Of a DNA stretch of 64,000 nucleotides, positions 13,563 through 50,425 are shown in pieces. The first letter of the stretch is position 1. Each line of letters opens with the position of its first letter. The stretch covers positions 1 to 64,000 of the forward strand of contig NZ_JAUSKL010000046.1 of assembly GCF_030646925.1 (NCBI RefSeq), read 5' to 3'. This stretch comes from Candidatus Binatus sp. Lineage in GTDB: Bacteria; Desulfobacterota; Binatia; Binatales; Binataceae. Made by a program: the position numbers and the translations under genes. The notes under the pieces were generated by a model, which ran no database searches, was not told the origin of the DNA, and saw nothing but the letters and a program-made list of their open reading frames with translations.

Positions 13563-13569
13563 AAAAGTC

Positions 13570-14110: not shown

Positions 14111-14165
14111 AGTTTGAAAAAGAAGGGCCGGGCGCGAGGCCCGGCCCGTTCCGAATCGACGTCGC

Positions 14166-16454: not shown

Positions 16455-16508
16455 GGTCAGACCTCTTGTTCGCGTGGTCGTATCTTATGATCGCTCGGAG
16501 CGCTGATT

Positions 16509-17015: not shown

Positions 17016-17044
17016 TTATCTTGTCGCCGTATTTGATTTTCGAG

Positions 17045-17914: not shown

Positions 17915-18065
17915 GGGTGGGAAACCTCCGGGGATCGGGCTTACGTTATACCCGACTTTATTCCTTAGCTAGCCTGTTTAAGGCCTTTCGCGGAAAAGGG
18001 CAAGCGCGCGCCGTTGGCATCCGCGGCGTTTAGCGTAATCATCAACCGCGGAGGCGCTCCCCACG

Positions 18066-18749: not shown

Positions 18750-18866
18750 GTAGATGGCAGCCGTCGCCTGAGAATGACAACGTGGTGAGCGATCACCCGA
18801 GAAAATCTTCACAAACTCTGAGAGCACGCGCGCGCCGACGGATCGCAAGCTCTCGCGCGCGCCGGT

Positions 18867-19792: not shown

Positions 19793-19796
19793 CGCC

Positions 19797-29733: not shown

Positions 29734-30357
29734 ATGGCGGAGAATCTGAAGCGTCAGGACGGCCTGCCGCCCGCGATGGCGCGACTCGTCAAGGAACTCT
29801 CACGCTTGCCGGGTATCGGCGAGAAGACCGCTGCGCGGCTCGCGTTCAATCTGCTGAATCGTCCGCGCGACCAAGTGATCGCGCTCGCGGAGTCGCTGCT
29901 CGAAATGAAAGAGCGGATCGGTCTCTGCGCGGAATGCTTCGGGCTGTCGGATCATCCGCGATGCCAAATCTGCGACGATGCGGCGCGCGAGCGCGATGTG
30001 ATCTGCGTGGTCGAGGGGCCGGCAGACTTGATGGCGATCGAGCGCGCGCGAAGTTTCAACGGCGTCTATCACGTGCTGAACGGCGCGCTCGCGCCGCTCG
30101 ACGGAATCGGCCCCGACGATGTCAAGATGAAGGAACTGTTCGCGCGCGTCGATCCGCCGGCCGGAATCCGCGAAGTGATCATCGCGACTAACGCGACGGT
30201 CGAAGGCGAGGCGACGGCGCTCTATATCGCGCGGATGCTGAAACCGCTCGGCGTGAAGATCACGCGCCTCGCGCGCGGATTGCCGGCGGGCGGCGATCTT
30301 GAATACAGCGACTCCGCGACCTTGACCAGCGCGCTCAGCGGCCGCCGCGAACTGTAA
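29734..30357 (+). CDS. recR: Recombination protein RecR
   Basis: RecR works with RecO and RecF to load RecA at gaps. The 207-residue protein has the helix-hairpin-helix LSRLPGIGEKTAARLAF, a Cys4 zinc finger (CAECFGLSDHPRCQIC), and a Toprim domain (VICVVEGPADLMAIER; RGLPAGGDLEYSDSATL). The ATG at 29734 has GGAG eight bases upstream and is preferred over the adjacent TTG. Confidence 0.95.
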   Translation: MAENLKRQDGLPPAMARLVKELSRLPGIGEKTAARLAFNLLNRPRDQVIALAESLLEMKERIGLCAECFGLSDHPRCQICDDAARERDVICVVEGPADLMAIERARSFNGVYHVLNGALAPLDGIGPDDVKMKELFARVDPPAGIREVIIATNATVEGEATALYIARMLKPLGVKITRLARGLPAGGDLEYSDSATLTSALSGRREL

Positions 30358-30398
30358 CCGCGCTACCTGAAATCTCGGCGCGATGCTAATCTAGGTTC

Positions 30399-30614
30399 GT
30401 GATCGAACTACCAATCATTCTGGTCCCTGGCGAGGACGGTTACATCGTCGCCGAGTGCCCGATCATTCCGGGATGCATCAGCCAGGGCCGCAATCGCGAA
30501 GAAGCGCTCGACAATATCCGCGAAGCAATCGAGCTCTGCCTGGAGAATCGCGAGAGCGAAGGTTGGGAACTGCCGAGCGACTATGAAGTCGTGCGACTCC
30601 CGCTGCACGGCTGA
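30399..30614 (+). CDS. hicB: HicB-like antitoxin
   Basis: The 71-residue protein has the HicB partial RNase H fold: ILVPGEDGYIVAECPIIPGC, ISQGRNREEALDNIREAIEL and a short C-terminus ending VVRLPLHG. There is no C-terminal DNA-binding domain, as in many short HicB proteins. A GTG start at 30399 is used. It is 3 bp before the hicA-like gene, forming a HicBA toxin-antitoxin pair. Confidence 0.82.
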   Translation: MIELPIILVPGEDGYIVAECPIIPGCISQGRNREEALDNIREAIELCLENRESEGWELPSDYEVVRLPLHG

Positions 30615-30617
30615 GAT

Positions 30618-30845
30618 GTGCCGCCCGCTGCTGGTTTACCGGTAATTTCAGGAGCAGTTTGCATCACTGCGCTCAAGAAACTTGGCTATCGGCAAGCTCG
30701 GCAGAAAGGCAGTCACGTTCGATTGGTTTGCGAAAATCGTGGTCCCGTCACTGTTCCTCTTCACGCGACGCTTGACCGGGGAACTTTACGTGCGATCATT
30801 CGCACTGTCGAAATAACGGTCGAGGAATTCACCGCTCTAATCTGA
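30618..30845 (+). CDS. hicA: HicA-like mRNA interferase toxin
   Basis: The 75-residue protein has the HicA double-stranded-RNA-binding-like fold: LPVISG, ALKKLGYRQARQKGSHVRL with the catalytic His, VPLHATLDRGTLRAIIRTVE. HicA cleaves mRNA and is neutralised by HicB. The start is a GTG at 30618; the family usually starts just before LPVISG, so a few N-terminal residues may be spurious. Confidence 0.85.
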   Translation: MPPAAGLPVISGAVCITALKKLGYRQARQKGSHVRLVCENRGPVTVPLHATLDRGTLRAIIRTVEITVEEFTALI

Positions 30846-30886
30846 TCCCATCAATTCAAATACCCAACGTTCCTAATCCACTTGCG

Positions 30887-31246
30887 ATGAAGAATACGAA
30901 AATCGTTGCCAGGGTTGGCGCCGCGATGCTGGCGCCAATTTTCACAGTGGCGATATCCGCCTGCGGCAAGTCCGCGCCGCGCACGCCCGCGATGCAGGGG
31001 CGAATCGTTTACATGACCAACTGCGTCGTGTGCCACAACGCCGACCCGAATCTGGCCGGCAGCCAGGGACCGCCGATCGCGGGTTCATCGCGCGAGCTGG
31101 TCGAGGATCGCGTGCTTAATCTGCAGTATCCGCCGGGCTACACGCCCAAGCGCACGACCCATGCGATGCGCGCGTTGCCGCAGCTCGCCGGCCAGATCGA
31201 CAATATCGTCGCGTTCCTCGACGAAGCGGCGAAGCAGAAGAAGTAG
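30887..31246 (+). CDS. Lipoprotein monoheme cytochrome c
   Basis: The 119-residue protein has a lipoprotein signal with lipobox ISAC (Cys at about residue 26) and one heme motif CVVCHNADP, with a candidate Met ligand in HAMRALPQL. It is a membrane-anchored electron carrier. It converges on the PuuD-like membrane gene, which in related systems is fused to a cytochrome c domain, so the two could be electron partners. Confidence 0.82.
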   Translation: MKNTKIVARVGAAMLAPIFTVAISACGKSAPRTPAMQGRIVYMTNCVVCHNADPNLAGSQGPPIAGSSRELVEDRVLNLQYPPGYTPKRTTHAMRALPQLAGQIDNIVAFLDEAAKQKK

Positions 31247-31266
31247 CGCGGCAAATTCCTGCGCCG

Positions 31267-31299
31267 AAAAAAGAGCCGTGGATCTCGTTTCCACGGCTC
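31267..31299 (-). terminator. Terminator between cytochrome c and PuuD-like gene
   Basis: GAGCCGTGGA and TCCACGGCTC form a perfect 10-bp stem. On the minus strand TTTTTT follows, so it ends the PuuD-like transcript; the stem may also stop plus-strand transcription weakly. Confidence 0.85.
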
Positions 31300-31323
31300 T
31301 CGTCGATTCGCGAAATTTCTGTG

Positions 31324-32019
31324 CTAGTGGCAGGTCACCCAGATCACGACAATCAAAACCAGCCAGAGGGCCAAGCCTGAGTGAATCGTCCCGGAAATCG
31401 AATCAAGCGGCTTCTTGGTCGGGCCTTGCGTGCCGACGAGCGCATTCGCCTCGACGATCGCGAGTATGATCAGCGTAATCACCAGCCACGCCGTGAGGCC
31501 GCCCGAGGTCGCCTCGTTGAACAGATTGTAGTGGCTCGCGGCGCCCATAAAGAACAGCATCGGAATTGAGAACAAAGTGTTGGTGCGCGAAGCGAGCGCC
31601 GCGCGCCTTCCAGCGGGCGCCGCCGCGGGATTCGCCGCCGCGCCGCCTGCGGTCGCGACCGCGTTGGCGATAATTATTTTCTGATTGGGCCAGATGACGA
31701 ACCACACGTTGGCCCACATAATAAGTCCCATGAAACCGCCGGTGAAGATCGCGACCGTCCACGGCGTCATCGCGTAGTTGAGGCGCATCGCCCACCACAT
31801 CAGCAGGTAGAGCAAGCCGAAAATAACCGTGCCCATCGCGCCCCAGCGGAACCACCAGAGCGCGCGCGGCACCAGTTTCTGGATCGCGCCGCTGCGCACC
31901 GCCGGATCGGTTTCGCCGAAAAACGGCGTCTGTACCAGGTTGAAATAATAGAGCAAGCCGATCCACGTGATGCCGAAAAGGAAGTGCAGCCATCGGAGCA
32001 GCATCAGGGTAAGGTCCAT
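31324..32019 (-). CDS. Urate-oxidase-N/PuuD-like membrane protein
   Basis: The 231-residue protein has about six membrane helices and matches the membrane half of PuuD (urate hydroxylase-type, DUF989): LLRWLHFLFGITWIGLLYYF at the N-terminus, WWFRWGAMGTVIFGLLYL, and WANVWFVIWPNQKIIIA. PuuD has a fused C-terminal cytochrome c domain; here it is absent. The ATG at 32019 has GGAGGA six bases upstream. Many such proteins are uncharacterised, so urate is only one possible substrate. Confidence 0.75.
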   Translation of the reverse strand: MDLTLMLLRWLHFLFGITWIGLLYYFNLVQTPFFGETDPAVRSGAIQKLVPRALWWFRWGAMGTVIFGLLYLLMWWAMRLNYAMTPWTVAIFTGGFMGLIMWANVWFVIWPNQKIIIANAVATAGGAAANPAAAPAGRRAALASRTNTLFSIPMLFFMGAASHYNLFNEATSGGLTAWLVITLIILAIVEANALVGTQGPTKKPLDSISGTIHSGLALWLVLIVVIWVTCH

Positions 32020-32022
32020 CAA

Positions 32023-32391
32023 TTATCCTCCTCGTCCGTTGTGATCCCCCGCGTAGTACAGCGACTTGTTTTTCACAGCATCGGGGCTTTTGCAACAGCC
32101 CGCCGACCAGCAGCACGATAGCGCCTCGATTTGGCGAACTACGCAATAGCCAATGTGACGAGCTACAGAAGTAGCCAATCTGAATAGTCAGTTACGAAGC
32201 AGCGAACTCAACTGAGTAATCGCGCGCGGCCACGCCGACCGAAATTTGCTCCGATGCGGAATCGTGCAGTACAATTCTGGTAGGCACTGGCAGCCTGCCG
32301 CCGAGCGCAATCAACGACGAATCGCCTGCAGGAAATCAACCCCCATACCGCGTCCGGCATCATTGCCGATGCGAAAGGACGGTCTTTTACT
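32023..32391. other. Intergenic region, divergent promoters
   Basis: This 370-bp gap separates the PuuD-like gene from sodB. It holds a candidate sodB promoter, TTGCTC (32246-32251) and TACAAT (32270-32275) with 18-bp spacing. No gene, tRNA or strong hairpin is seen elsewhere. Confidence 0.35.
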
Positions 32392-32973
32392 ATGGCCTTT
32401 GAACTTCCCCCGCTTCCCTACTCGATGGACGCGCTCCAACCTTACATCTCGGCGGAGACGCTCGAATATCATCACGGCAAGCATCACGTGGCCTACGTGA
32501 AGAAGGCGAATGAGCTGGTCGCGAAGAGCAAGTTCGCCAACGCCTCGCTCGAGGAGATCCTGAAAACCGCCGAGCCGGGTCCGCTCTTCAATAACGTCGA
32601 GCAGCACTACAATCATTCGTTCTACTGGAAGACTCTTGCCCCGAAGGCTGGCGGCGAGCCGAAAGGACCGATCGCCGACGCGATCAAGCAAGCGTTCGGC
32701 AGCTTCGCGGCGTTCAAGAAAAAATTCAGCAAGGCGGCCGACGAGCATTTCGGCAGCGGATGGGCCTGGCTGATACGGAACTCGAGCGGCGCACTCGAAG
32801 TGGTATCGACGCACGACGCCGGATGCCCGATTCGGCAAGGGCAGACGCCGATCATCACGTGCGACGTGTGGGAGCACGCGTATTACATCGATTATCGCAA
32901 CGAGCGTCCCAAATACGTCGAAGGATTCTGGAATCTGGTGAACTGGGAATTCGCGAACAAAAATCTGAAATAG
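32392..32973 (+). CDS. sodB: Superoxide dismutase (Fe/Mn family)
   Basis: SOD disproportionates superoxide. The 193-residue protein has the four metal ligands: His in ETLEYHHGKHH, His in QHYNHSFYW, Asp and His in DVWEHAYYIDY. The phrases NHSFYWKTLAP and FGSGWAWL favour the iron type, though metal choice cannot be proved by eye. No signal peptide is present, so it is cytoplasmic. Confidence 0.94.
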   Translation: MAFELPPLPYSMDALQPYISAETLEYHHGKHHVAYVKKANELVAKSKFANASLEEILKTAEPGPLFNNVEQHYNHSFYWKTLAPKAGGEPKGPIADAIKQAFGSFAAFKKKFSKAADEHFGSGWAWLIRNSSGALEVVSTHDAGCPIRQGQTPIITCDVWEHAYYIDYRNERPKYVEGFWNLVNWEFANKNLK

Positions 32974-33069
32974 ACGCGGTGCCGATTTCGCTTTGCGGGA
33001 CCAATTCTCCGTACTAGAGTCGGCTTGATATCGCGACTCGGAAGTGCGCGACAGAAGGAGAATCCCGCA

Positions 33070-33792
33070 ATGCAGCAGCTCGAAAATCGCGTGGCGATCA
33101 TCACCGGCGGCACTGGCGCTCTCGGCCGCGCCGTGAGCGAGAACTTTCTGACGGCGGGCGCGCGCGTCGCGATTCCATGGGTCGTCGAAGCGGAAGTGCC
33201 GATGCTCGAGGCTCAGCTCGGCAACCGGTTTCCCTCGTCCGCGACCTTCCTCAAGAAGGCCGACGTATGCGACGAGAAACTGTTCGGCGATTTCGCCGCC
33301 GAAGTCGAATCGAAGTGGGGCAAGATCGACATTCTCGTGAACCTCGTCGGCGGTTTCTGGGGCGGTTCATCGATCGCTCAGACGAGCATGGCAGAATGGC
33401 AGGCGATGTTCGATCTGAACGTCAAGCCGACTTTTATCTGCTGCAAAACGGTCGCGCCGATCATGCAGAAAAACAAGTGGGGCCGAATCGTATCGGTGAC
33501 CTCGCGCACCGGCCTGCTCGGCGCCGGCGACTACGCCGCGTACGCGGTCGCGAAGGGCGCAATCGCGACGTTTACCGTGTCGCTTGCCGAAGAACTGCTC
33601 GCCGACGGCGTGATGGTCAATGCGATCGCGCCTAGCACGATCGACACTGAAGCGAATCGCAAGGCGATGCCCAATGCGAAGCATGAGAAATGGGTGAAGC
33701 CCGAGGATATCGCGCGGACGCTCAATTTTCTCTGCTCGGACGATTGCCGCGTGACGTCGGGCGCGATCGTCCCGGTTTACGGCAAGGCCTGA
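33070..33792 (+). CDS. SDR family oxidoreductase
   Basis: The 240-residue short-chain dehydrogenase has TGGTGALGRAV, the catalytic Ser (VSVTSRTG) and YAAYAVAKGA, and a C-terminal cofactor-loop region. The ATG at 33070 has GGAG nine bases upstream; the frame is open earlier but without a ribosome-binding site. Substrate unknown. It follows sodB by about 95 bp and may be transcribed separately. Confidence 0.86.
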   Translation: MQQLENRVAIITGGTGALGRAVSENFLTAGARVAIPWVVEAEVPMLEAQLGNRFPSSATFLKKADVCDEKLFGDFAAEVESKWGKIDILVNLVGGFWGGSSIAQTSMAEWQAMFDLNVKPTFICCKTVAPIMQKNKWGRIVSVTSRTGLLGAGDYAAYAVAKGAIATFTVSLAEELLADGVMVNAIAPSTIDTEANRKAMPNAKHEKWVKPEDIARTLNFLCSDDCRVTSGAIVPVYGKA

Positions 33793-33810
33793 GAAACAGG
33801 TCTGCGACGA

Positions 33811-34623
33811 TCAGTGGCCCGGGTCGGGATTCGATACCGCGAGCCGGAGCCGCGGCCGAAGCGGCAATGCGAGGCGAGCGGCTATTACTCGATACACGTC
33901 GGCGCTGAACGCCATCCCGACGTGACTGCCGAGCACTTCGACGTTCTCGATCGTCGGCGCGTCGGAGTTATCGACGCAACTTTGCCAATGCACCACGCCA
34001 TCGGTGCGCGAGTACACCACCGTGGTCGGCACGTCTTTCGGCGAAGTCTCGCTCATTCGCAATCCGCATGAGCACGCTTCGCTGAGGCATCTTTCGGCTT
34101 TGCCGCGGATGCGCGCCATCGAACGCGCCACCGCCGCGACCGCGTGATTGGAAGAATCGCGTGGCCATCGGATCGGAGAACCCAGAGTGATCACGCGCTC
34201 GACCAGTTGTGGATTGCGATGAGCCAGTTCGCGCGCGTAGATGCCGCCGAGGCTATGCCCAATTACCACGATCGGAGAATCCCACCGATCGGCGGTGCGA
34301 GCGAGCCGACTGCTCAGATGTTCGACCGATTCGCGCGGACACTGCGAGTTCGACCAGATCCCGGCAAAAACCGCGCGATGCCCCAGCCAGCGACAAAAAT
34401 TTGCCATCGGCGCGAGCGTCACGTCACCCGCCATGAAGCCTGGGATCAGCATCACCGTTTTGCTGTTGGCGCGCTCAACGCGCGGCCACGGATAGCTGAG
34501 CGCGCCGAGCCAGAATAGCGAAGCCTCGAACGGAAAGCGCAGTTCGCCGAGCGAATCGAGCAAGGAGGGACGCTGTGGTTCTGCTTCCTCTGGATTGTCC
34601 GTCATGGCGTATGCTTGTGCCAT
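33811..34623 (-). CDS. Alpha/beta hydrolase (lipase/esterase-like)
   Basis: The 270-residue protein has a nucleophile elbow VVIGHSLGGIYAREL, an oxyanion region VMLIPGFMAGD, and a C-terminal catalytic-His candidate in VLGSHVGMAF. It resembles triacylglycerol-lipase-type hydrolases and has no export signal. Starts at 34623 and 34605 are both possible. It converges on the SDR gene. Confidence 0.8.
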   Translation of the reverse strand: MAQAYAMTDNPEEAEPQRPSLLDSLGELRFPFEASLFWLGALSYPWPRVERANSKTVMLIPGFMAGDVTLAPMANFCRWLGHRAVFAGIWSNSQCPRESVEHLSSRLARTADRWDSPIVVIGHSLGGIYARELAHRNPQLVERVITLGSPIRWPRDSSNHAVAAVARSMARIRGKAERCLSEACSCGLRMSETSPKDVPTTVVYSRTDGVVHWQSCVDNSDAPTIENVEVLGSHVGMAFSADVYRVIAARLALPLRPRLRLAVSNPDPGH

Positions 34624-34800
34624 CGGTGATCTAGCTCAGCAGCTCGCACCGGCAACGACGGGGAGACTATTCGTTCGCGGGGCGAAACCGCAGCCACAAT
34701 CAACCCATCCACAACCATAACATAACCATTTTGTTGCGAAATCTTCAATCGAAAACTCTGCTATAGAAATGAGCATAACCAGTGCCATGAATATCTGCAT

Positions 34801-34854
34801 ATGACCGCCGAACAGGCGCTTGAAATAAGGCGCAAATTGGGCGAAATAACCTGA
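34801..34854 (+). CDS. Very short open frame resembling an HTH start
   Basis: Seventeen codons encode MTAEQALEIRRKLGEIT, which looks like the first helix of an XRE-type antitoxin before a stop. It could be a remnant of a truncated HTH gene, a leader peptide of the LLM gene 15 bp downstream, or chance. Confidence 0.15.
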   Translation: MTAEQALEIRRKLGEIT

Positions 34855-34868
34855 TTGCGAGGTGACCT

Positions 34869-35855
34869 GTGGAATTCGGTATCCAAATTGCGAATATGCC
34901 CCCGGCCAGGTTTCGCGAAATCGCGCAAACCGCCGAGGGCCTCGGCTTCGATCTGATCCTCTTTCCGGATCATATCGTGATGGAAGGTCCGGAGCGGCAG
35001 ATGGATCCGCACGCGCTCGCTTACGATCATATCGCGGTGGCCGCGGCGCTGATGGAGGCGACCAAAAAAATCCGTATCGGGCACCTCGTGCTGTGCAACC
35101 TGTTTCGCCATCCGGCGATCACCGCGCAAAGCCTGATGACGCTGGATCACTTAAGCAATGGCCGATTGATCGCAGGCCTCGGCACCGGATGGACTGAGAC
35201 GGAATTCAGGATGACGGGAATCAGCTTCCCGCCGATCGCGGAGCGGCTCCGGATGCTCGACGAAGCGCTGACCTGTATCCGCTCACTGTGGAGTAACGAG
35301 CAGACCAATTTCGACGGCGAGTTCTATCATCTGAAGGACGCGATCCTGTGGCCCAAGCCGATCCAGAAGCCGTATCCGCCGATTCTGCTCGGCGGCGGCG
35401 GCAAGGGATTGCTGCGAATCGCGGCTAAGCATGCCGATATCGTGAATATCATCTCGGAAGCGGGCAAAATGGGGCACATCTCGCTCGAGTACATCCGCAA
35501 GATGACCACCGACGCCTTTCGCGAGAAGGCCGATTTCGTGCGCGCCGAAGCGAAGAAACATGGCCGCAATCCCGCCGCGATCCGCTTGAGCAATGCTATC
35601 TTCGCGCCGACGGTCACCGAGACTCGCGAAGAAGGCCGTCAGGCTGCCGAGATGATGGCGCAGATGTTCGGAATGAGCGTTGATGCGGTCAGGCAATCGC
35701 CGCTCGCGCTGATCGGTACGCCCGACGAATGCGTCGTCGAGTTGAAGCGCCGCGCCAAGGAATGGGACGTGACGCAATTCATCTTTTCGGGTCCGATCGG
35801 CCAGGATGAAAAGGGGCTCCGCCGGCTCCGCGAAGATATCCTGGCGCACGTGTAG
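34869..35855 (+). CDS. LLM-class F420-dependent-type oxidoreductase
   Basis: The 328-residue TIM-barrel protein has the luciferase-like monooxygenase pattern: MEFGIQIANMPPARFREIAQ, LGFDLILFPDHIV, NGRLIAGLGTGW, PYPPILLGGGGKGLLRIAA and a C-terminal GTPDECVVELKRRAKEW. Members use F420 or FMN to oxidise or reduce diverse substrates. The start is a GTG at 34869. No F420-synthesis gene is in the window, so cofactor identity is inference. Confidence 0.85.
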   Translation: MEFGIQIANMPPARFREIAQTAEGLGFDLILFPDHIVMEGPERQMDPHALAYDHIAVAAALMEATKKIRIGHLVLCNLFRHPAITAQSLMTLDHLSNGRLIAGLGTGWTETEFRMTGISFPPIAERLRMLDEALTCIRSLWSNEQTNFDGEFYHLKDAILWPKPIQKPYPPILLGGGGKGLLRIAAKHADIVNIISEAGKMGHISLEYIRKMTTDAFREKADFVRAEAKKHGRNPAAIRLSNAIFAPTVTETREEGRQAAEMMAQMFGMSVDAVRQSPLALIGTPDECVVELKRRAKEWDVTQFIFSGPIGQDEKGLRRLREDILAHV

Positions 35856-35881
35856 CAAGGGAAGCGCGAAAAGAAAAGAGG

Positions 35882-35951
35882 GGAGAAATCTGCGAAACCC
35901 CTCACGGGTTTCGCGCTTCCTGGGGCGATAATATGCGCGCTCCGCGCTGAT
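35882..35951 (-). repeat. Structured interspersed element, copy B
   Basis: This 70-nt element is the partner of 49118-49186 (opposite strand), with 46 of the first 60 aligned bases identical. Two hairpins are conserved; the second, on the minus strand, is GCGAAACCC/GGGTTTCGC. Three base pairs differ between the copies by compensatory changes on both sides. Confidence 0.6.
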
Positions 35952-36016
35952 AATAGCATCCTGAAAAGCGCGGCAGCGATGACGAGTCTCGCTCCCCCCG
36001 CAGCGCGCGATCGCCC

Positions 36017-36177
36017 GGGTAGAGCGGGCGTCCCTGCCCGCCGCTGATTGCCGGCGCCGATGCAATCGCACAATATCTACGCCGCATCGCTTGCCCCGAC
36101 GCATGCATTCCGCGTCAATGCTCCGCCAGCATCGCCGCCACGCAATTCGGAGGCGGGCAGGGACGCCCGCCCTACCC
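36017..36177. repeat. Foldback element with 26-bp inverted arms
   Basis: Arms at 36017-36042 (GGGTAGAGCGGGCGTCCC onward) and 36152-36177 are reverse complements with 25 of 26 bases matching, 109 bp apart. Each arm itself contains a smaller stem (GGCGGGCAGGGACGCCCGCC). No transposase is nearby, so this looks like a MITE-like or REP/BIME-like element. Confidence 0.55.
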
Positions 36178-36226
36178 ACTTTTGAGCGAAGGCTGCCGGA
36201 GTCGAAGGATCCCTTGCGCTCCTTTC

Positions 36227-36273
36227 TGTCATTCCCGCGCGATGGCTGCCGCGCGAGGAATCCCGGATCTTTT
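36227..36273 (+). repeat. Interspersed repeat, copy related to 11357-11404
   Basis: Reads TGTCATTC..GCGA.GGCTGC..GAATCCCGGAT with a T-rich end. Internal CGCGC/GCGCG can pair. The minus-strand copy at 11357 shares the skeleton. Confidence 0.5.
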
Positions 36274-36288
36274 GCGGATATCGTGCGA

Positions 36289-36723
36289 TTAAATGTTGAA
36301 CGACAGCGCGTGCTTGCGCTTGTCGGCGAGCGATTGCAGCGTCGCCGTGCGCAGGATCGAATTGACCGTATCGCGCACCTCGCGCCACACGTCGCGCATC
36401 GCGCACGCTTGCTCGCGCGGGCAGTTCGCCGAGTTTTCCTCGAGGCATTCGACCGGGACGTAGTCGCCCTCGACGATCTCGACCACGTCGGCCATCGTGA
36501 TTCGCGACGGCGGCTTGGCGAGCATGTAGCCGCCGCTCGGTCCCTTCTGGCTGGCGACCAGGCCGCCGCGTTTAAGCTCGATCAAGAGCCGCCGCAAGTA
36601 GTTCTCCGGGATGTCCTGGGTCTCGGCGATCTCCTCGACCCGGATCGGGATGTTCGATGGATACCGCTCCGCCAGATGCAGCAAAGCCTTCAGGGAATAA
36701 TCAACGCCGACGCCGAATTTCAT
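36289..36723 (-). CDS. Rrf2-family iron-sulfur/cysteine regulator
   Basis: The 144-residue protein is a winged-helix Rrf2 factor: VDYSLKALLHLAERYPSN, IPENYLRRLLIELKRGGLV with the DNA-reading helix, GPSGGYMLAKPP, and three cysteines in VECLEENSANCPREQACAM. That C-x7-C-x5-C set resembles the [Fe-S] ligands of IscR, suggesting a cluster-sensing regulator. It is divergent from the sulfite reductase operon, which it probably controls. Confidence 0.88.
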   Translation of the reverse strand: MKFGVGVDYSLKALLHLAERYPSNIPIRVEEIAETQDIPENYLRRLLIELKRGGLVASQKGPSGGYMLAKPPSRITMADVVEIVEGDYVPVECLEENSANCPREQACAMRDVWREVRDTVNSILRTATLQSLADKRKHALSFNI

Positions 36724-36795
36724 CTTTGATCCAACGCCTTTGTAGCATATCGTCCGAATAGATGGAATAGACGACCGACTTTGTCATCTAATTAA

Positions 36796-36824
36796 TTGAC
36801 TAAGTTACTCACACTAGTTATGTT
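36796..36824 (+). promoter_or_regulatory. Promoter of the sulfite reductase operon
   Basis: TTGACT (36796-36801), a 17-bp spacer and TATGTT (36819-36824) form a good sigma70 promoter about 60 bp before the reductase start. The region is AT-rich and contains repeated ACTAAGTTA/ACTAGTTA, which may be part of an Rrf2 operator. Confidence 0.55.
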
Positions 36825-36882
36825 TTACCTACTCGCGCCCATCAAAGAGGTGCAAGCAAGCATCCTGTAGAGGAACGCTGTA

Positions 36883-38502
36883 GTGCCGAGGAAAGAACCA
36901 CAATCCTGGGAAATGGTCTTGAAGCGCAACTCGGTCGAGCGCCTCAAGCACGAACTGTTTCCCACCGAACTCGCCGGCCAATGGAATCGCCTGGCCGAGA
37001 CCTCGTACGAGAAGCTGCCCGAGGAAGATATCGTGCGTCTGCAGTGGTTCGGCATGTACCACGACAAGCCGAAGATCGGCACCTTCATGATGCGCGTGAA
37101 AATTCCGAGCGGCATCCTGAGCGCCGACGGGCTCCGCGCGATCGGCGAGATTTCCGAGACCTACGGACGCGACCAGGGCGAGCTCACGACGCGCCAGAAC
37201 TTCCAGCTTCATTACATCACGCTCGATAAATTTCCCGAGATTCTCGAGCGCCTGAAGCGCGTCGGGCTCACCACGATGGGCGGCTGCGGCGACGTGGTGC
37301 GCAATATCACCGGATGTCCCGTCGCGGGCGTCGATCACGACGAGCTGTTTGACGTGACGCCGCTGATCGCAGAGGCGGCCGGCTTCTTTTACGGCAATCG
37401 CGAGTACTCGGATTTGCCGCGCAAGCACAAGATTACGATCGCGGCGTGCCGCTATCACTGCAATGCGCCGGAAATTAATTGCGTCGCGCTGATCGGGATG
37501 GTCCGCGACGGCCGCGAAGGATTCGCAGTGCGGGTCGGCGGCGGGCAATCCTCGACGCCGCGCCTCGCACGACATCTTGGCGTGTTCATCACGCGCGAAC
37601 AGGCGATGCCCGTGATGCGCGCGATCATCGACGTGTGGAAAGGCACCACCGAGTACCGCATCTCGCGGGTCAAGGCGCGCCTCAAGTTCATGATCGACGA
37701 TTACGGCCCCGCGGAGTTCCGCAAGCTGGTCGAGGCGCGGCTCGGTTACGCGCTCGAGGATCTCGCCGAGACGCCGCTTCCTGACGATGAAAGCGATCAC
37801 ATGGGAATCAGCGCGCAGAAGCAGGACGGCCGCCACTACGCGGGCTTTCCGGTGTACCTAGGCCTGATGAGCGGGCGTCAGATGCGCGCGATCGCAGACC
37901 TGGTCGGATCGTTCGGCGGCGATATCCGGCTCACGCGCCGGCAGAATTTCATCATCACGGGAATCCCGACAGCGCAACTCGACGACGTGATCGCAAAGGT
38001 CGGCGAGATCGGATTTCCACTCAGCGCGAACGGCCTCTATGCGTCATCGATCGGATGCATCGGCGATCCGCATTGCAACTACGCGGTGACGCCGACCAAG
38101 ACCAAGCTCGCGACGATTATCGAGCGCCTGGTGGCCGAGTTTGGCGAACAGGTCGGCGGCCTGAAGCTCAATCTCGACGGATGCCCGCATGCGTGCGCGC
38201 AGCATTGGACCGGCGATATCGGGCTGCAGGGCACCACCGGACGCGGGCCGAACGGCGAGCCACTCGAGGCCTTCGATATCATCCTGCGCGGCGGACTCGG
38301 CAGGGACGCGGCAATCGGCAAGCCGGTGCTGCGCCGCGTGCCGTCCGCGATGGTCGAAGATCAGGTGACCCGCCTCTTCGGCGCATACCTCGAACGACGA
38401 CAAGCGGGCGAGTCCTTCACGCGCTTTTGCGTGCGGACCTCCGACGCGGAATTGACCTCAATCGCAAACGGCAACGCAATCGGCGCTGACGCCGCCGCCT
38501 GA
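36883..38502 (+). CDS. Assimilatory sulfite (or nitrite) reductase, siroheme type
   Basis: The 539-residue enzyme contains two copies of the nitrite/sulfite reductase ferredoxin-like half (GELTTRQNFQLHYI near residue 100; GDIRLTRRQNFIITGI near 350) and the siroheme/[4Fe-4S] cysteines as CIGDPHC and CPHAC. Position directly before an APS reductase indicates sulfite reduction to sulfide. The start is a GTG at 36883 with AGGAA eight bases upstream. It is co-transcribed with cysH. Confidence 0.92.
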   Translation: MPRKEPQSWEMVLKRNSVERLKHELFPTELAGQWNRLAETSYEKLPEEDIVRLQWFGMYHDKPKIGTFMMRVKIPSGILSADGLRAIGEISETYGRDQGELTTRQNFQLHYITLDKFPEILERLKRVGLTTMGGCGDVVRNITGCPVAGVDHDELFDVTPLIAEAAGFFYGNREYSDLPRKHKITIAACRYHCNAPEINCVALIGMVRDGREGFAVRVGGGQSSTPRLARHLGVFITREQAMPVMRAIIDVWKGTTEYRISRVKARLKFMIDDYGPAEFRKLVEARLGYALEDLAETPLPDDESDHMGISAQKQDGRHYAGFPVYLGLMSGRQMRAIADLVGSFGGDIRLTRRQNFIITGIPTAQLDDVIAKVGEIGFPLSANGLYASSIGCIGDPHCNYAVTPTKTKLATIIERLVAEFGEQVGGLKLNLDGCPHACAQHWTGDIGLQGTTGRGPNGEPLEAFDIILRGGLGRDAAIGKPVLRRVPSAMVEDQVTRLFGAYLERRQAGESFTRFCVRTSDAELTSIANGNAIGADAAA

Positions 38503-38523
38503 ACCTCCTCTGAGGACTGTCTG

Positions 38524-39366
38524 ATGGCTCTGCAAATCGAATTGGACGAACAGGTCGAAACTCCCAAGCTCAGCCTGATCATGGATGAACTCGAGGCGGG
38601 TGAAGCCGCCGTCGAGCTCGACGACCGGGACCCGCAAGCAGTCATCGCGTGGGCGATCGATCGCTTCGGCAGCGAGCTCGCGATCTGCTCGAGCTTCCAG
38701 GCCGAGGGCTGCCTGCTGATCGACATGGCGTGGCGAATCGATCCGAAGATTCGCGTCTTCACGATCGATACCGGCCGCCAGCCGCAAGAGACTTACGACT
38801 TGATCGACAAGGTGCGCGATCGCTACGGGATCAATACCGAAATTTTCCTGCCGGAAACGAAAGTGGTCGAGCAGATGGTCACCAAGCACGGCAACAACCT
38901 CTTCTACCGCGACGTCAATCTGCGCCTGCTGTGCTGCCAGGTGCGCAAGGTGCTGCCGCTCCGCCGCGCGCTGATGAACTACAGCGCCTGGATGACGGGG
39001 CTGCGCCGCGATCAGTGGGCGACCCGCTCGAACATCCGCAAGATCGAGATCGATCACGATCACGGCGGAATCGTGAAGCTCGCGCCGCTAGCCGACTGGA
39101 CCGAAGACGAAGTGTGGGACTACATCCGCGCCAACGACGTTCCCTACAACGCGCTCTACGACAAGGGCTACAAGTCGATCGGATGCGGTCCATGCACGCG
39201 CTCGGTCGGCGAGGGCCAGGACGCGCGCGCCGGCCGCTGGTGGTGGGAAACCGGCGCGCCGAAGGAATGCGGGATGCATTGCGCGATCGAGACCGGCGGC
39301 TTCGAGCATGAGTTGGCGGCACTGCTCGGGCGCAACGGCAACGGGCATTCGAACGGAGGCGTTTAG
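38524..39366 (+). CDS. cysH: Adenylylsulfate (APS) reductase, assimilatory
   Basis: CysH reduces APS to sulfite. The 280-residue protein has the PP-loop-like LAICSSFQAEGCLLIDMA, TIDTGRQPQETYDL, the cluster cysteines LLCCQVRK and IGCGPCTRSVG, and the catalytic Cys in APKECGMHC. The CC...CxxC [4Fe-4S] pattern marks an APS rather than PAPS reductase. It follows the sulfite reductase by 21 bp; a gene of unknown function follows. Confidence 0.94.
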   Translation: MALQIELDEQVETPKLSLIMDELEAGEAAVELDDRDPQAVIAWAIDRFGSELAICSSFQAEGCLLIDMAWRIDPKIRVFTIDTGRQPQETYDLIDKVRDRYGINTEIFLPETKVVEQMVTKHGNNLFYRDVNLRLLCCQVRKVLPLRRALMNYSAWMTGLRRDQWATRSNIRKIEIDHDHGGIVKLAPLADWTEDEVWDYIRANDVPYNALYDKGYKSIGCGPCTRSVGEGQDARAGRWWWETGAPKECGMHCAIETGGFEHELAALLGRNGNGHSNGGV

Positions 39367-39370
39367 AACG

Positions 39371-39862
39371 ATGTCGAGCGACGACGAACCCAAAACGGGT
39401 GAGCCGATAACGCTCGACACTCTGCAGCACGATCTCCTGGTTCCGCAAATCCAGGCATTCCTCGAAGCGACCAATGACCCGCAGGCGCGCGAAGTCTATG
39501 GCGCGCTCGCGGCGGCGATCGATCGCCTCGAAGTACCTCCAGAGCTCGCGGCGCGGCTCGGCGCGATCGTCGAAGTCGCCCTGACCAGCGGGCGTATCCG
39601 CAAACTCTTCGGCCCCGGCGCGGAACTATCGCTGAGCGCGCTCTTCATGAAGACGCCGCGCGGCCGCGAGATCGCGCAATCGCTCGGCGAACTGAACAGG
39701 GCGCTCGCGACGCTGAAGGATCAGACAGTCGAGCAGATTACGGCGTCGCAGCGGAGTCCCGGCGCCTACGCGCTGACGCTCAAGACTAGCGGATGCCAGC
39801 TCGTGATTCGCTTCGAGCAAGCCGGCGTGCGCATCGAAAGCCTGGAAGTCGATCTGGGCTAG
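39371..39862 (+). CDS. Hypothetical protein of the sulfate-assimilation operon
   Basis: The 163-residue protein is not recognised. It is mainly helical (REVYGALAAAIDRLEVPPEL, RIRKLFGPGAELSLSALFMK), with a beta-rich C-terminus (QLVIRFEQAGVRIESLEVDLG). There are no Cys clusters or signal peptide. It starts 4 bp after cysH, so it is very likely co-translated with the sulfur genes. Its role is unknown. Confidence 0.65.
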   Translation: MSSDDEPKTGEPITLDTLQHDLLVPQIQAFLEATNDPQAREVYGALAAAIDRLEVPPELAARLGAIVEVALTSGRIRKLFGPGAELSLSALFMKTPRGREIAQSLGELNRALATLKDQTVEQITASQRSPGAYALTLKTSGCQLVIRFEQAGVRIESLEVDLG

Positions 39863-39875
39863 CGATTTTGATCCG

Positions 39876-41189
39876 CTACGGTTCGAGGCGCTCCATCAGG
39901 CGCGGGAACGGAATCGTCTCGCGGATGTGATGGCTCCCGCAGAGCCATCCGGTGACCCGCTCGATGCCCATCCCGAAGCCCGCGTGCGGCACCGAGCCGT
40001 AGCGGCGCAAATCGAGGTACCATTCGAACGGTTCGAGCGGCAGATCGTGCGCGAGAATTTTGCTCCGCAACGTTTCGTAATCGTCCTCGCGCTGTCCGCC
40101 GCCGATAATTTCGCCGTGACCCTCCGGCGCGAGCATATCGACGCATAGCGCGACCTCCGGCCGCGCCGGATCCTGCTTCATGTAGAATGCTTTGCAGACC
40201 GTCGGGTATCGATGCACCATCACAGGGCGATCGAACTCCTCCGACAGCAGGGTTTCTTCATCGCCGCCGAAATCGTCGCCCCAATTGACGGCTGCGCCTT
40301 TGCGCTTCAGCCGCTCGATCGCCTCGTCATAACTGATGCGCGGATACGGCAACTCGGCGGATTTCTCGAGCTTCGAAGTATCGCGCTCAAGCGTCTTCAG
40401 CTCCGCCGATCTGCGCTCGAGCACGCGGCCGACGATGTACGCGACGAACTCTTCTGCGAGCTTCATGTCGCCGTCGAGATCGCAGTACGCGACCTCCGGC
40501 TCGACCATCCAGAATTCCGTGAGATGCCGCCGCGTCTTGGATTTCTCCGCGCGAAAGGTCGGCCCGAAGCAGTACACCTTGCCGAATGCGAGCGCGCCCG
40601 CTTCGACATAGAGTTGCCCGCTCTGTGTGAGATACGCCTTGCGATCGCCGAAGTAATCGACCTCGAACAGATTGGTCGTGCCTTCGCATGAAGTTGGCGT
40701 CAGGATCGGCGAGTCGAACAGCACGAAGCCGCGCTCGTCGAAGAAATCGCGGCATGCCGACGCGATCTCGCTGCGAATCCGCAATATCGCATGCTGGCGC
40801 GACGAGCGCACCCACAGATGCCGGTTGTCGAGCAGGAACGCGACGCCGTGATCCTTCGGCGTGATCGGATAGTCAGTCGAAGGCGCTACAATCGCGATCG
40901 ATTTGAGCGTCAGTTCGTAGCCGCCGGGCGCGCGCTTGTCGGCCCGCACGACGCCGCTTACTTCGAGCGAAGTTTCCTGGCCCATGTGATCGGCGGCGGT
41001 GAAACTCTCCGCGCCGATATCGCCGATCGAGGCGACGCACTGGCAGATCCCGGTCCCGTCGCGGACCTGCAGGAAATGTATTTTGCCGCTCGAGCGCTTG
41101 TTGTTCAGCCAGCCCTTCAGCGTGACTTCATTGCCTTCGTGGCGCGCGAGGTCTTCGACATAAACGTGATTGGAAGCTGGGGCATCCAT
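39876..41189 (-). CDS. asnS: Asparaginyl-tRNA synthetase
   Basis: The 437-residue class IIb synthetase has an N-terminal OB anticodon-binding domain ([20 protein letters not shown]), motif 2 [21 protein letters not shown] and motif 3 [12 protein letters not shown]. The insertions fit AsnRS rather than AspRS. The ATG at 41189 (MDAPAS) was chosen over one three codons earlier. It stands alone, divergent from cvpA. Confidence 0.94.
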
Positions 41190-41331
41190 GCGCCACATTT
41201 AAGCATATCGGCGCGCGAACTGGAGAGCCGTTCGTCGCTTGCAGGGAACGGCTGCGGTAGGATCGCCGCGAAGGGAGATAGTTCAGCGTGCTGGCATCGG
41301 TGAGAGAATTTGCGGGACGGACTACGTCGCG

Positions 41332-41919
41332 ATGAACGCGCTTGATTACGCGATCATCGCGATCGTCGTGATCGGGGCGTTGCACGGACTCAGGCGCGGC
41401 GCGATCAGGATGGTCACCACGGCGGTGGCGTTGGTCGCCGCGCTGAATTTCGCGTCGTTGTACTATGCACAGGCGGGCGAACTCGCCGGCGCGCAGCTAG
41501 GCGTCAGTCAGGCCGCGGGCGCGGTCATCGGATGGATCGCGGTGTTCCTGTTGATTTTCATCGCGGTCGGAATCATCGGCGCCGCGATCGTTCGCGTGAT
41601 CCATTTCGTGCATCTCGGCTTCCTCGATCGGCTCGGCGGAGCGTTACTCGGCGCCGGGATCGCGACCCTGCTGACGGGAGTCGCGGTGATGCTGATGTCG
41701 GCGATGGCGCCGGACAACACCCCGCTGATTCGCGATTCCCGCTTGGCGCCGCCGCTGATGGCCTATACCGAGAAGATCGACGGATTCATCCCGCAGGAAG
41801 CGAAGCAGACCTATCAGCGCAATCGCGACGACTTGAAGAAATATTGGGACCAGAATGCGACGAAGGGCGCAGGCGTTGCGCTGTTTCCAGACGCGTCGCC
41901 TTCGCCCTCCAGCAATTAA
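41332..41919 (+). CDS. CvpA-family membrane protein
   Basis: The 195-residue protein has four membrane helices and the CvpA pattern: NALDYAIIAIVVIGALHGLRRG and GFLDRLGGALLGAG. CvpA proteins are linked to colicin V production and, more recently, envelope integrity; the mechanism is unclear. The C-terminal tail is soluble and ends in a Ser/Pro-rich segment. It converges on trxA. Confidence 0.85.
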   Translation: MNALDYAIIAIVVIGALHGLRRGAIRMVTTAVALVAALNFASLYYAQAGELAGAQLGVSQAAGAVIGWIAVFLLIFIAVGIIGAAIVRVIHFVHLGFLDRLGGALLGAGIATLLTGVAVMLMSAMAPDNTPLIRDSRLAPPLMAYTEKIDGFIPQEAKQTYQRNRDDLKKYWDQNATKGAGVALFPDASPSPSSN

Positions 41920-41939
41920 CGATTATATAGCGTGCTCGA

Positions 41940-42275
41940 TTACGCGGTGATCGCGCTATCGACTGCCTTTACCAGCGTGCCCCGCGGCACCGCGCCGATA
42001 ATCTGTTCCTTGACCTGACCACCCTTGATGATGAGCAGGTTCGGGATTCCGCGCACGCCGTATTGTGCCGGCGTCGCCGGGTTGTCGTCCACGTTGATCT
42101 TGACGATCTTCAGGCGGCCCGAATACTCGCCGGCGAGGTCGTCGAGGATTGGAGCGATCGCGCGGCACGGGCCGCACCACGGCGCCCAGAAATCGACCAG
42201 GACCGGAGTATCGGACTTGAGAACTTCGTTCTCGAAGCTGCCATCAGTAACATGCACGATTTTGTCGCTCGCCAT
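41940..42275 (-). CDS. trxA: Thioredoxin
   Basis: The 111-residue protein is a canonical thioredoxin with the redox site FWAPWCGPCRAIAP and the cis-Pro GIPNLLII. It reduces disulfides in the cytoplasm, including, plausibly, those of CysH encoded nearby. No export signal is present. Confidence 0.95.
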   Translation of the reverse strand: MASDKIVHVTDGSFENEVLKSDTPVLVDFWAPWCGPCRAIAPILDDLAGEYSGRLKIVKINVDDNPATPAQYGVRGIPNLLIIKGGQVKEQIIGAVPRGTLVKAVDSAITA

Positions 42276-42430
42276 GAATTATTCTCCTGTAGTTGCACAC
42301 TGCAACATAAGTACGGTCGGCTATCCAGTCAAGGCAGCCTGAGCTGTGAACGTGCGGCGCTGCTGACAACATTGTATCTCAATCGCGCGGCTATCGCTTC
42401 ACGATCGTTACGGCGGCGCCGTAGGCCCCG

Positions 42431-42639
42431 ATCGCTTGACCGCGATGCGCTTTCCACTTCGCTGCATAAGCATGCCGGCGCCGATGCTCAATGACGTATT
42501 GCCCGACTTGCTCGAAGAGATGGCTTATCTGCTGAAGCAGCAGGGCGCGGACCCGCTCGAGCCCAAGCTGCGCGCGCTTCGAATCGAGTCGGTATGCGAT
42601 TGCGGTGACGAGAATTGCGCGAGCTTCGCGACCGCGCCC
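42431..42639 (+). repeat. Direct repeat, left copy (flanks oxidase)
   Basis: This 209-bp segment matches 44723-44931 without gaps, with seven substitutions. The two copies flank the minus-strand oxidase gene and carry the 5' part of the gene at 44764. Confidence 0.9.
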
Positions 42640-42660
42640 TTGTCCGCGTCAAACTCATAG
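42472..42660 (+). pseudogene. Truncated copy of the hypothetical gene at 44764
   Basis: Fifty-six residues (MPAPMLNDVLPDLL... to ASFATAP) equal the start of the intact gene, then the frame runs into oxidase-side sequence (LSASNS) and stops. Its TAG overlaps the oxidase stop on the other strand. Confidence 0.85.
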
Positions 42661-44526
42661 CTTCGTGAAGCCGTCCGCGCTCCATTGTTCCGAGCCAACT
42701 CCATTATGGACGAAGAACAGCCCGTCCGGATCGTATTTTCTTTTGATTTCAGCGAGGCGAGGGTGGTTGCTGCCCCAGTACGCTTGCTGCCATCCCTTCT
42801 CGAAGTAATTGCTCTCGCTCACATACGCTCCCGCGTCCGGCACGAGGGCACGAAGCTGACTCATGCATCGATCAACGCGCTCCGCGGCTTTGCGGCCTGC
42901 CGCAACCGATGGTTCATGCCCGGGAATTCCCGGATATGCGGGTCGTTGGCCGTCGGCTACGATCGCGAGAGCGAAGGCGGTCAGCACTGCCGGATTCATC
43001 GCGGTGTCCTTCGCCCCGGCGATCGCATCGGGCGGCGCTCCGGCCAGTCCCTTATTGAAGTGCAGTTCGACACCTGAATAGCGAGAGCTTGCAAAAAACG
43101 CGTCAGCGAGACGCTGCTGCGCGTCATTCTCGAGCAGCGAAGCCGGCAACCACAGCGACTCGAAACCCCAAATGAACCATCCGACCTGCCCGCCGTCTCC
43201 CTTCCACCACGCGTTATTGGGTCCAGCGCCAGGCCGATGGTCGAACTCGAAAACCGGCTGCCGCATCAAGTGTACGAGGGCATAGTCAAACAACGCGGTT
43301 AGGGCATCTCGATTGGGGAAAGCCAGCTCAGCCCAGTGCTCTTTCCACCATTGCACGTCCCACCAGCGCCGCGCCGGTATGCTTCCGATAACCACCCGCC
43401 CTTGAATCGAATATTCGTGCGGCGAACGCGCCACCCAGTCCAGAAACGGCTGCCAGACTTTTTTCGCCTGCCCCGCGTCCAACCCTTGAGAGACCATGCT
43501 GATAACGAGCGTGTTGTCGGGGTTAACGTGGGCCTGCTCTCCCCAATGGTCGTTGAAGAGATTCTCCCGATAGAAGCTCACGAACTCGCGGATAAGGCGG
43601 CGATAGGCGTCATCCGACGCCGCTTTGATCGTGAAGTTGGCGGTGCCGAAGAACTCGGGGAGATCGTGAACGCGCACTGTCACCTTACTCACCACCCCAA
43701 AGCTCCCGCCTCCTCCGCCTTTCAACGCCCAGAACAGATCGGGGTTAGTGCATGCATTCGCGAGGCGAATCTGGCCGTCGGCAGTGACCACTTCGGCTTC
43801 GAGCAAACTTCCTGCGGCGGAGCCGTAGTGCTTCGAGTAACTTCCAAAGCCACCACTTTGAATCAGACCCGCCACGCCTACCGTCGTGCATCCGCCACCC
43901 TGAACGTATTTTCCACCCTTGGTCGTAACCGCGTCGTATGCCTGAATCCCGATCGTTCCGGCGCCGAGCGTCACCGCCGGTTGCGGCTGTTGAGTATGCT
44001 CGCATCCTTGCGGAACAAATCCGGTATGCACCACGATATCGTTCATGTGCCGGGTCCAAATCAGAAGCGAATCAGGCGCATTGGACGTGCCCTGATAGCT
44101 GTGGCCGCCGCCCCTGACCACCAGGCGCAAGTCATTTTCGCGGGCAAACTTCACGGCCTCGGCGATGTCATGGGCATTTCTTGTCGCGACTGCGTAAACG
44201 CTTGGTCTGGTGGCCCATGCGTCCACCCATCCCAAGGTCTGCGTGAGCCCGGGCTGATCGCCGATGTAATATGGATTTTTCAGGTTCTCCGAAAGAAGCT
44301 TGGCTGCAGCGCCCGCTGGATCGGTTTTGAATACCGAAAGGGGAAAGTTTACAGGAATCAAATTTCCGCCGACTGCATCATCGAGTTGCTTCCACGCCGG
44401 CTGCGATGGCCACGTGGCGTCGGAAGGACGGCGCCGGCGGAAATTCGTACTCGCCGAGAGGCGGCGCGGCAAAATCGGCAGGAGCGCCGCCGATCCGATT
44501 GCTTTCAAGAATGCTCTTCTGTTCAT
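42655..44526 (-). CDS. Berberine-bridge-enzyme-like FAD oxidase, bicovalent type
   Basis: The 623-residue protein begins with a twin-arginine-like leader (NRRAFLKAIGSAALLPIL) and has a PCMH FAD-binding domain: LVVRGGGHSYQGTS, whose His is the expected 8-alpha-histidyl link, and YVQGGGCTTVGVAG, whose Cys is the expected 6-S-cysteinyl link, giving a bicovalent flavin. The C-terminal BBE segment ends SNHPRLAEIKRKYDPDGLFF. Such enzymes oxidise sugars, alcohols or alkaloids with O2 and make H2O2. It sits between 209-bp direct repeats and interrupts the local gene order, so it is probably acquired. Confidence 0.88.
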   Translation of the reverse strand: MNRRAFLKAIGSAALLPILPRRLSASTNFRRRRPSDATWPSQPAWKQLDDAVGGNLIPVNFPLSVFKTDPAGAAAKLLSENLKNPYYIGDQPGLTQTLGWVDAWATRPSVYAVATRNAHDIAEAVKFARENDLRLVVRGGGHSYQGTSNAPDSLLIWTRHMNDIVVHTGFVPQGCEHTQQPQPAVTLGAGTIGIQAYDAVTTKGGKYVQGGGCTTVGVAGLIQSGGFGSYSKHYGSAAGSLLEAEVVTADGQIRLANACTNPDLFWALKGGGGGSFGVVSKVTVRVHDLPEFFGTANFTIKAASDDAYRRLIREFVSFYRENLFNDHWGEQAHVNPDNTLVISMVSQGLDAGQAKKVWQPFLDWVARSPHEYSIQGRVVIGSIPARRWWDVQWWKEHWAELAFPNRDALTALFDYALVHLMRQPVFEFDHRPGAGPNNAWWKGDGGQVGWFIWGFESLWLPASLLENDAQQRLADAFFASSRYSGVELHFNKGLAGAPPDAIAGAKDTAMNPAVLTAFALAIVADGQRPAYPGIPGHEPSVAAGRKAAERVDRCMSQLRALVPDAGAYVSESNYFEKGWQQAYWGSNHPRLAEIKRKYDPDGLFFVHNGVGSEQWSADGFTKL

Positions 44527-44722
44527 TAACCCTTTTTCCCGAAAGCTCAATTTTCCTCACGAGGAATATCCGCTCCCCGGCTCAACTGCCGTGGCGTATC
44601 ACGAGACCTGCGCGGGTGCCGGAATCGCGCTTATGAGCCGTCCGACGGCTGTTCACTGATCAGGATTTTGTCGAGTTCCTCGCTCATGCGTCGGACGATA
44701 GCCATCCGCCAGGTGGTGCGCT

Positions 44723-44931
44723 ATCGCTTGACCGCGATGCGCTTTCCACTACGCTGCATAGTCATGCCGGCGCCGATGCTTAACGACGTATTGCCCGACT
44801 TGCTCGAAGAGATGGCTTACCTGCTGAAGCAGCAGGGCGCGGACCCGCTCGAGCCCAAGCTGCGCGCGCTTCGAATCGAGTCGGTATGCGATTGCGGCGA
44901 CGAGAATTGCGCGAGCTTCGCGACCGCGCCC
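44723..44931 (+). repeat. Direct repeat, right copy (flanks oxidase)
   Basis: Partner of 42431-42639. This copy contains the 5' part of the intact gene. Confidence 0.9.
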
Positions 44932-45102
44932 GAGGTCAAAGTTGCGAACTATGTCGAGCTGCAATCGATCGAAGGCCAGGTGATTATCGATCTGAACGCG
45001 GCCGACGAGATTTGCTTTATCGAGGTGCTCGGCCGGCCCGATATCAAGTACCTGCTCGAGGAGTACTACGACGCGCAGAGCCCCGGCGGCTCGAACAGCT
45101 AG
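44764..45102 (+). CDS. Hypothetical protein with CDCGDENC motif
   Basis: The 112-residue protein is not recognised. It has an N-terminal helix (MLNDVLPDLLEEMAYLLKQQ), a three-Cys motif VCDCGDENCASF, and a beta-rich second half (QVIIDLNAADEICFIEVLG). Starts at 44764 and 44776 are equally possible; neither has a ribosome-binding site. A truncated second copy lies at 42472. Its stop overlaps that of the convergent esterase. Confidence 0.6.
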   Translation: MPAPMLNDVLPDLLEEMAYLLKQQGADPLEPKLRALRIESVCDCGDENCASFATAPEVKVANYVELQSIEGQVIIDLNAADEICFIEVLGRPDIKYLLEEYYDAQSPGGSNS

Positions 45103-45929: not shown

Positions 45930-45960
45930 CCTTGTGGAAATCCGCGCGGGCGCGTCCCCT

Positions 45961-47874: not shown

Positions 47875-48069
47875 TGAGGCATCATACCTTCTGCGCTTTT
47901 CGATGCGCAATTGCGCTATCAGATGCCGTTCACGCGACGGTCGGGGCCCGCCTCGTGGCCGCAGCGGTTATCAAAGCGGCGCGAAGACGGAAACGATGCG
48001 CACGCCTAGAATTAGAAGTAACATCGCGCTTATCAGTACAATCAAAGAATTCGAGGGTCGAGTCGACTA

Positions 48070-48997: not shown

Positions 48998-50425
<1,428 letters not shown>

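Follow-up and report, generated by a model that had tools for sequence, protein, structure and literature searches.

A modular hairpin repeat dispersed at gene 3' ends in Candidatus Binatus

The two related hairpin elements in the window (the whole stretch of 64,000 nucleotides of Candidatus Binatus sp. DNA analysed here) belong to a family of about 90–120 copies in this genome, where the original prediction had described a two-copy element. It is probably a new, untagged and modular family of the REP/BIME type, carried, among the genomes sampled, by the host's own genus and part of a second one of the same taxonomic family, with tens to about 100 copies per genome. New copies would be gained in trans, through a copying or transposition process whose products land, or persist, chiefly right behind coding regions, and the enzyme involved is probably not a RAYT. 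The first hairpin of the unit (H1) would be transcribed in the mRNA 3' end, where it may serve as a 3'-UTR hairpin, stopping 3'-5' exonucleases or punctuating transcription; such a role would explain both the polarity of the copies and their retained pairing. Arrays of the last hairpin (H3) would grow via local tandem duplication.

Copy 1 (35882–35951, taken as its reverse complement) and copy 2 (49118–49186) were realigned without gaps over 60 positions, which reproduced exactly the 14 differences counted originally (alignment positions 6, 14, 20, 21, 23, 28, 29, 31, 38, 46, 48, 50, 52 and 60). The three pairs that had been called compensated, 6–14 in H3 (the short GC hairpin) and 38–60 and 46–52 in H1 (the GAAACC/GGTTTC hairpin), are real; they vary in concert across the whole family (C-G/U-A, C-G/G-C and G-C/C-G exchanges), and mismatched intermediates are few. 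Copy 1 is not in a featureless spacer: like most copies it has its H1 side first, starting 37 nt past the stop codon of a luciferase-like (LLM) monooxygenase gene. The coordinates are collected in Table 1.

Table 1. Positions of the two window copies, their parts and the neighbouring genes.
Feature	Position	Strand	Basis
Copy 1, whole short-form unit (leader, H1, linker, H3, tail)	35879..35958	+	R1 83.0 bits, E 1.1e-25
Copy 1 purine-rich leader, from LLM monooxygenase stop codon (35853–35855) to H1	35856..35891	+	sequence
Copy 1 H1, GCGAAACCC-CTCAC-GGGTTTCGC	35892..35914	+	9 pairs, conserved and covarying over 49 and 143 copies
Copy 1 linker GCTTCCTGGGGC	35915..35926	+	alignment A1; CTTCC invariant in 49 short copies
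Copy 1 H3, GCGC-TCC-GCGC	35937..35947	+	4 pairs covarying GCGC/GGGC/GGCC
Copy 2, whole short-form unit	49111..49190	-	R1 84.5 bits, E 3.0e-26
Copy 2 H1, CCGAAACCT-CCCGC-AGGTTTCGG	49155..49177	-	sequence, alignment, pairing count
Copy 2 H3, GGGC-TCC-GCCC	49122..49132	-	sequence, alignment, pairing count
LLM monooxygenase (PF00296), copy 1 at its 3' end	34869..35855	+	Pfam domain
mreB, start 208 nt downstream of antisense copy 2	49385..50425	+	gene; congener comparison

Other repeats were seen next to copy 1. A GTAG-tagged REP, GGGTAGAGCGGGCGTCCCTGCCCGCC, forms an inverted pair just downstream (36017–36042 on the forward and 36152–36177 on the reverse strand), and TGTCATTCCCGCGCGATGGCTGCCGCGCGAGGAATCCCGG, at about 36227–36266, resembles the CGTC/TGTC-tagged REP superfamily; similar units (TCATTCTGAGCGAAGCGAAGAATCCC) are present in other spacers of the genome. 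Elsewhere in the window, the ORFs at 42472–42660 and 44713–45102 have a common start region (MPAPMLNDVLPDLLEEMAYLLKQQGADPLEPKLRALRIESVCDCGDENCASF...), pointing to a duplication that was local and recent. Around 48452–48997, about 1.3 kb between a divergent peptidyl-prolyl isomerase-like gene and mreB has no counterpart in several congeners; it includes an ORF without a Pfam match, and copy 2 lies at its mreB-side edge.

The unit is composed, in this order, of a purine-rich leader, H1, a CTTCCYG linker, an optional hairpin H2 and at least one H3, and measures about 80–125 nt. Both window copies have the short form (∼80 nt), in which the leader ends in AAGAGTC or similar; the leaders of 45 copies were 71% purine, compared with 52% at the 114 gene ends lacking the element. 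H1 has 9 pairs, an invariant GAAAC/GTTTC core and a variable loop of 2–6 nt. The linker (GCTTCCTGGGG or GCTTCCCGTTG) is followed by an AT-rich spacer and GATGC, and H3 has a GCGC/GGGC/GGCC stem, a TNC loop and the tail TGTTAGTA. The long form carries H2, an extra hairpin of about 40 nt (GACGCGAAGCCGACTTCGGGCCGCAGGGCCGAATCGC), between the linker and H3. Further H3 units often follow the first one head to tail every 60–100 nt, and the genome holds 112 H3 units when up to 2 mismatches are allowed. In H1-H3-H3-H3 arrays the units are likewise head to tail, with mostly different spacers. At one locus on contig C34 (L137, 3718–3933) an H3-containing unit is present as nearly identical 97-bp tandem duplications, suggesting recent local growth of that array.

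Two structural candidates were dropped. Loop and linker subtypes among the copies of this genome and its congener palsa_1115 hinted at a pseudoknot of the H1 loop with the linker, but this was abandoned because the loops and linkers of the carrier genomes G314, G149 and G264, inspected by eye, do not keep the complementarity. H1 as a parS half-site was rejected, the arms being in the opposite order. The genome does hold about 22 parS-like palindromes (TGTTTCACGTGAAACA, at most 1 mismatch), clustered on contig C69 (for example C69:6294–7959, and further C89:19545 and C67:33084), some of them adjoining or overlapping the element.

Searched at the DNA level, the genome (4.58 Mb, 126 contigs) yielded 43 matches, 41 of them beyond the window copies. 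The covariance model R1, trained on 49 short copies that include both window copies, gave 119 matches at E<0.01. These DNA and R1 matches rule out a chance resemblance of two copies or a simple duplication. In the genome 89 strong R1 matches were found at E≤1e-6, and palsa_1115 has 74 strong ones, which answers the covariance-model search proposed in the original prediction. Among 37 genomes of the host's taxonomic family, the repeat was present in 5 of 5 of its own genus, in 2 of 6 of a second genus (at least 94 copies in G314 and 7 in G325) and in none of the other 26. Across the phylum (297 genomes sampled), strong R1 matches were confined to the host's own genus and the remainder were weak (≤30.6 bits). 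A scan of 84,980 species genomes, which may omit records very near the window's own genome, matched the H1-linker pattern mainly in MAGs from peat and permafrost, palsa_1115 foremost, followed by palsa_1114, palsa_1003 and ERR1035437_bin.86; the carrier MAGs had been deposited as Deltaproteobacteria. Pattern matches in Ancylobacter, Bosea, Thauera, Hyphomicrobiales, Planctomycetota, Acidimicrobiia and Parvularcula were set aside, since they resemble palindromes that arose by chance. The carrier MAGs would belong to the Binatota/Binatales, whose genomes have been recovered chiefly from soils, peats and bogs (PMC8262859). An Rfam search of the window returned only the SRP RNA and one tRNA; the element did not exceed the gathering threshold of any curated family.

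Base pairing is conserved throughout the family. For 49 copies, 98.6% of the stem cells were paired and 35 double-sided changes were counted, compared with 8.9 in shuffles; for 143 copies from several genomes the values were 98.5% and 203 (74.5 in shuffles). Sliding the partner by one column destroyed the pairing signal of the 143-copy alignment, which leans towards structure because it was built by fitting to the model. The paired changes could come from selection, rapid compensation, subfamily descent or template switching. Template switching at DNA hairpins yields the same concerted stem changes (PMC8794818), and we regard it as a serious possibility, if somewhat less probable than its contrary, that the changes arose by intra-hairpin template switching (quasi-palindrome correction), combined with the descent of copies from a small number of subfamily masters, in which case they would be silent on selection for the fold. 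Exactly this mechanism is described in the cited work; moreover, the stem exchanges left very few mismatched intermediates, and C-G to G-C exchanges occur at 63 of 139 cells of one H3 pair and at 14 of 143 of the outer H1 pair. However, of five orthologous sites common with palsa_1115, two had compensated outer H1 pairs, two had mismatched (uncompensated) ones and one had unchanged ones; hairpin correction is thus incomplete. Template switching also leaves the polarity towards gene 3' ends unexplained. Selection for the fold had been offered originally as the natural explanation; the conserved pairing on which that claim was built stands, but selection does not follow from it, since template switching or subfamily masters give the same changes. 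Compensated changes in repeats need care, as template switching during replication can mimic selection.

The position of the copies relative to genes was assessed with gene boundaries from a purpose-written codon-usage gene caller. All of the 123 copies examined lie outside genes. The side of H1 faces a gene 3' end in 49 of 68 copies of this genome, and the sign of the polarity is the same in two other genome sets (20/31 and 14/22); in about 30% of the copies H1 faces a gene start instead. H1 is typically about 30 nt past the stop codon, and in this genome it follows the stop codon by 11–61 nt in 46 of the 68 copies. Within 65 nt of a gene 3' end, the H1 side was found 46 times and the H3 side 3 times (p about 7e-11). 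Between convergent genes, where both sides of a copy face a 3' end, H1 was the nearer side in 39 of 42 cases (p about 6e-9), made up of 22/23 in this genome, 11/13 in G314 and 6/6 in the other congeners. Tandem gene pairs of G314 showed no polarity (6 versus 5), yet the asymmetry in distance persisted. The copies are thus strongly tied to gene 3' ends with a fixed polarity, at odds with the 'unrelated intergenic places' to which they had been assigned.

Position, polarity and retained pairing, all read from sequence, would fit a transcribed 3'-UTR hairpin, either a stabiliser or a non-canonical form of punctuation. The element could also be a dispersed intrinsic transcription terminator, like the pneumococcal SPRITE; a location ∼30 nt past stop codons, H1 first and with the downstream gene far off, is what such a terminator would show. 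We consider this quite unlikely. In the consensus of the 49-copy alignment (A1) there is no U-tract after H1 (GCTTCCTG) or after H3 (the tail given above), and therefore the element is not a canonical intrinsic terminator. Canonical terminator-like hairpins with a U-tract are present elsewhere in the window, so the organism does not lack them. Their density is uneven: for the two 20-kb stretches 30001–50000 and 1–20000 of the window, one had 8 such sites (20.0 expected, sd 4.7) and the other 28 (19.4 expected, sd 3.9). Beyond the 3'-UTR hairpin itself, we entertain, tentatively and as an unlikely extension, that the element is a portable transcript end: a mobile unit that settles in one orientation after stop codons and gives the host mRNA a 3' hairpin (a stabiliser or non-canonical terminator). 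The ready-made hairpin supplied to the mRNA would then be the reason that the element is tolerated and kept at many genes.

The occupancy of sites differs between related species. The element follows none of the orthologs of the LLM monooxygenase in six congeners (67–86% identity), and copy 2 is absent upstream of mreB in five congeners, in which homology resumes just outside the leader, at CAATTG. As these window copies are missing at the same sites in congeners, the family is dynamic. Eight gene ends were informative for the comparison with palsa_1115; 5 were occupied in both genomes and 3 only in the window's own. Copies appear to be both gained and lost, and each empty site could also represent a loss. 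The dispersed or mobile structured family that had been proposed is borne out, with conserved pairing and sites that are polymorphic between congeners. Several copies on contig C38 are placed after genes from the remnant of a Mu-like prophage (portal PF06074). A decaying Mu-like prophage is present in two species (L133, C38:65001–85000, in this genome and L044/L070 in palsa_1115), with the element repeatedly after its genes and an occupancy that differs between the two. The congeners G264, G326 and G330 possess a second, very similar mreB (94–97% identity to the query), which is absent from the window's genome.

The enzyme behind the gain of copies was sought among known mobilisers. The genome has one ORF for a Y1 transposase, and on either side of it lies a different repeat, GGGTAGGGGTGGGCGTCCCTGCCCACC, that bears a GTAG tag (locus L031; the REP pair downstream of copy 1 is of the same kind). 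A GTAG tag is typical of RAYT-linked REPs. In A1, neither a GTAG nor a CGTC tag is found at H1 (flanks AAGAGTC and GCTTCC) or at H3 (flanks GATGC and TGTTAG). Among the seven carrier genomes scanned, the Y1 gene occurs in this genome only; G314, with its numerous copies, is without one. The original suggestion of a RAYT link fails on these points. Although a Y1 transposase ORF is present and REPs are typically extragenic palindromes in high copy number close to gene 3' ends (PMC3733652), we judge it very improbable that the element is a GTAG- or CGTC-type REP moved by a RAYT (an IS200-like Y1 transposase). Reverse transcriptase was rejected as mobiliser, showing no correlation with the repeat and lacking in the carriers G264, G326 and G325. 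For the element itself no enzyme was found, and neither was a terminal inverted repeat or a target-site duplication, the marks of a MITE; in A1 the leader does not complement the tail, and the empty sites are too diverged for a duplication to be read.

A purely selfish repeat would need no RNA role: its insertion machinery would home in on gene 3' ends in one direction, for instance by way of the single-stranded DNA that transcription exposes, and the hairpins would be recognition sites of the enzyme. The turnover of sites between close species, the spread into a prophage remnant, the high copy number and the absence of interrupted genes all agree with this. However, no enzyme was found to track with the repeat, no duplicated target sites were recognised, and the loops, lengths and spacing of H1 are more variable than expected of a strict recognition site. 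This reading therefore seems rather doubtful, though it deserves real weight, and a repeat gained in trans and retained with H1 as a 3'-UTR hairpin is preferred. Overall, the findings extend REP-like repeats to an uncultured soil lineage and provide a clean natural case of strict polarity to stop codons in a repeat without a detectable RAYT. The choice between selfish DNA, RNA 3' ends or both thereby becomes directly testable by transcript-end mapping.

Several known systems resemble the element in part. The attC sites of integrons are conserved in fold and lie just after a stop codon in fixed orientation, as the element does; its copies, in contrast, are dispersed over many contigs, with GTTAG at the H3 tail only. 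An attC identity was rejected, as in the 49 copies of A1 no R-box pair is conserved at the two ends, nor RYYYAAC at the 5' end. In Streptococcus pneumoniae, BOX elements (PMC3049150) likewise combine a fixed end module with a variable number of internal or repeat modules, form stem-loops if transcribed and occur in about 125 extragenic copies. Terminal inverted repeats and target-site duplications are found in BOX, which also has a related IS, whereas none of these was recognised in the element, and the sequences are unrelated. SPRITE, from the same species, is also a dispersed hairpin repeat located where a terminator would be, but it resembles a Rho-independent terminator with a uridine-rich tract (PMC3049150), which the element does not have. 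The closest likeness is to REPs and BIMEs (PMC3733652): short, palindromic and extragenic, with about 100 copies per genome, mostly near gene 3' ends (that of the upstream gene in unidirectional pairs), and combining several hairpin types. REPs with a CGTC tag also share the lack of a known dedicated transposase (Di Nocera et al. 2013, PMC3733652). The element differs from REPs in being untagged on H1 and H3 and in forming a larger composite unit, and from BIMEs, whose units alternate in orientation with conserved spacers, in its head-to-tail H3 units. While the location of REPs near gene 3' ends was already known (PMC3733652), the fixed end of the element, H1, faces the gene even between convergent genes, and this strict polarity of a composite unit seems to be its unusual part.
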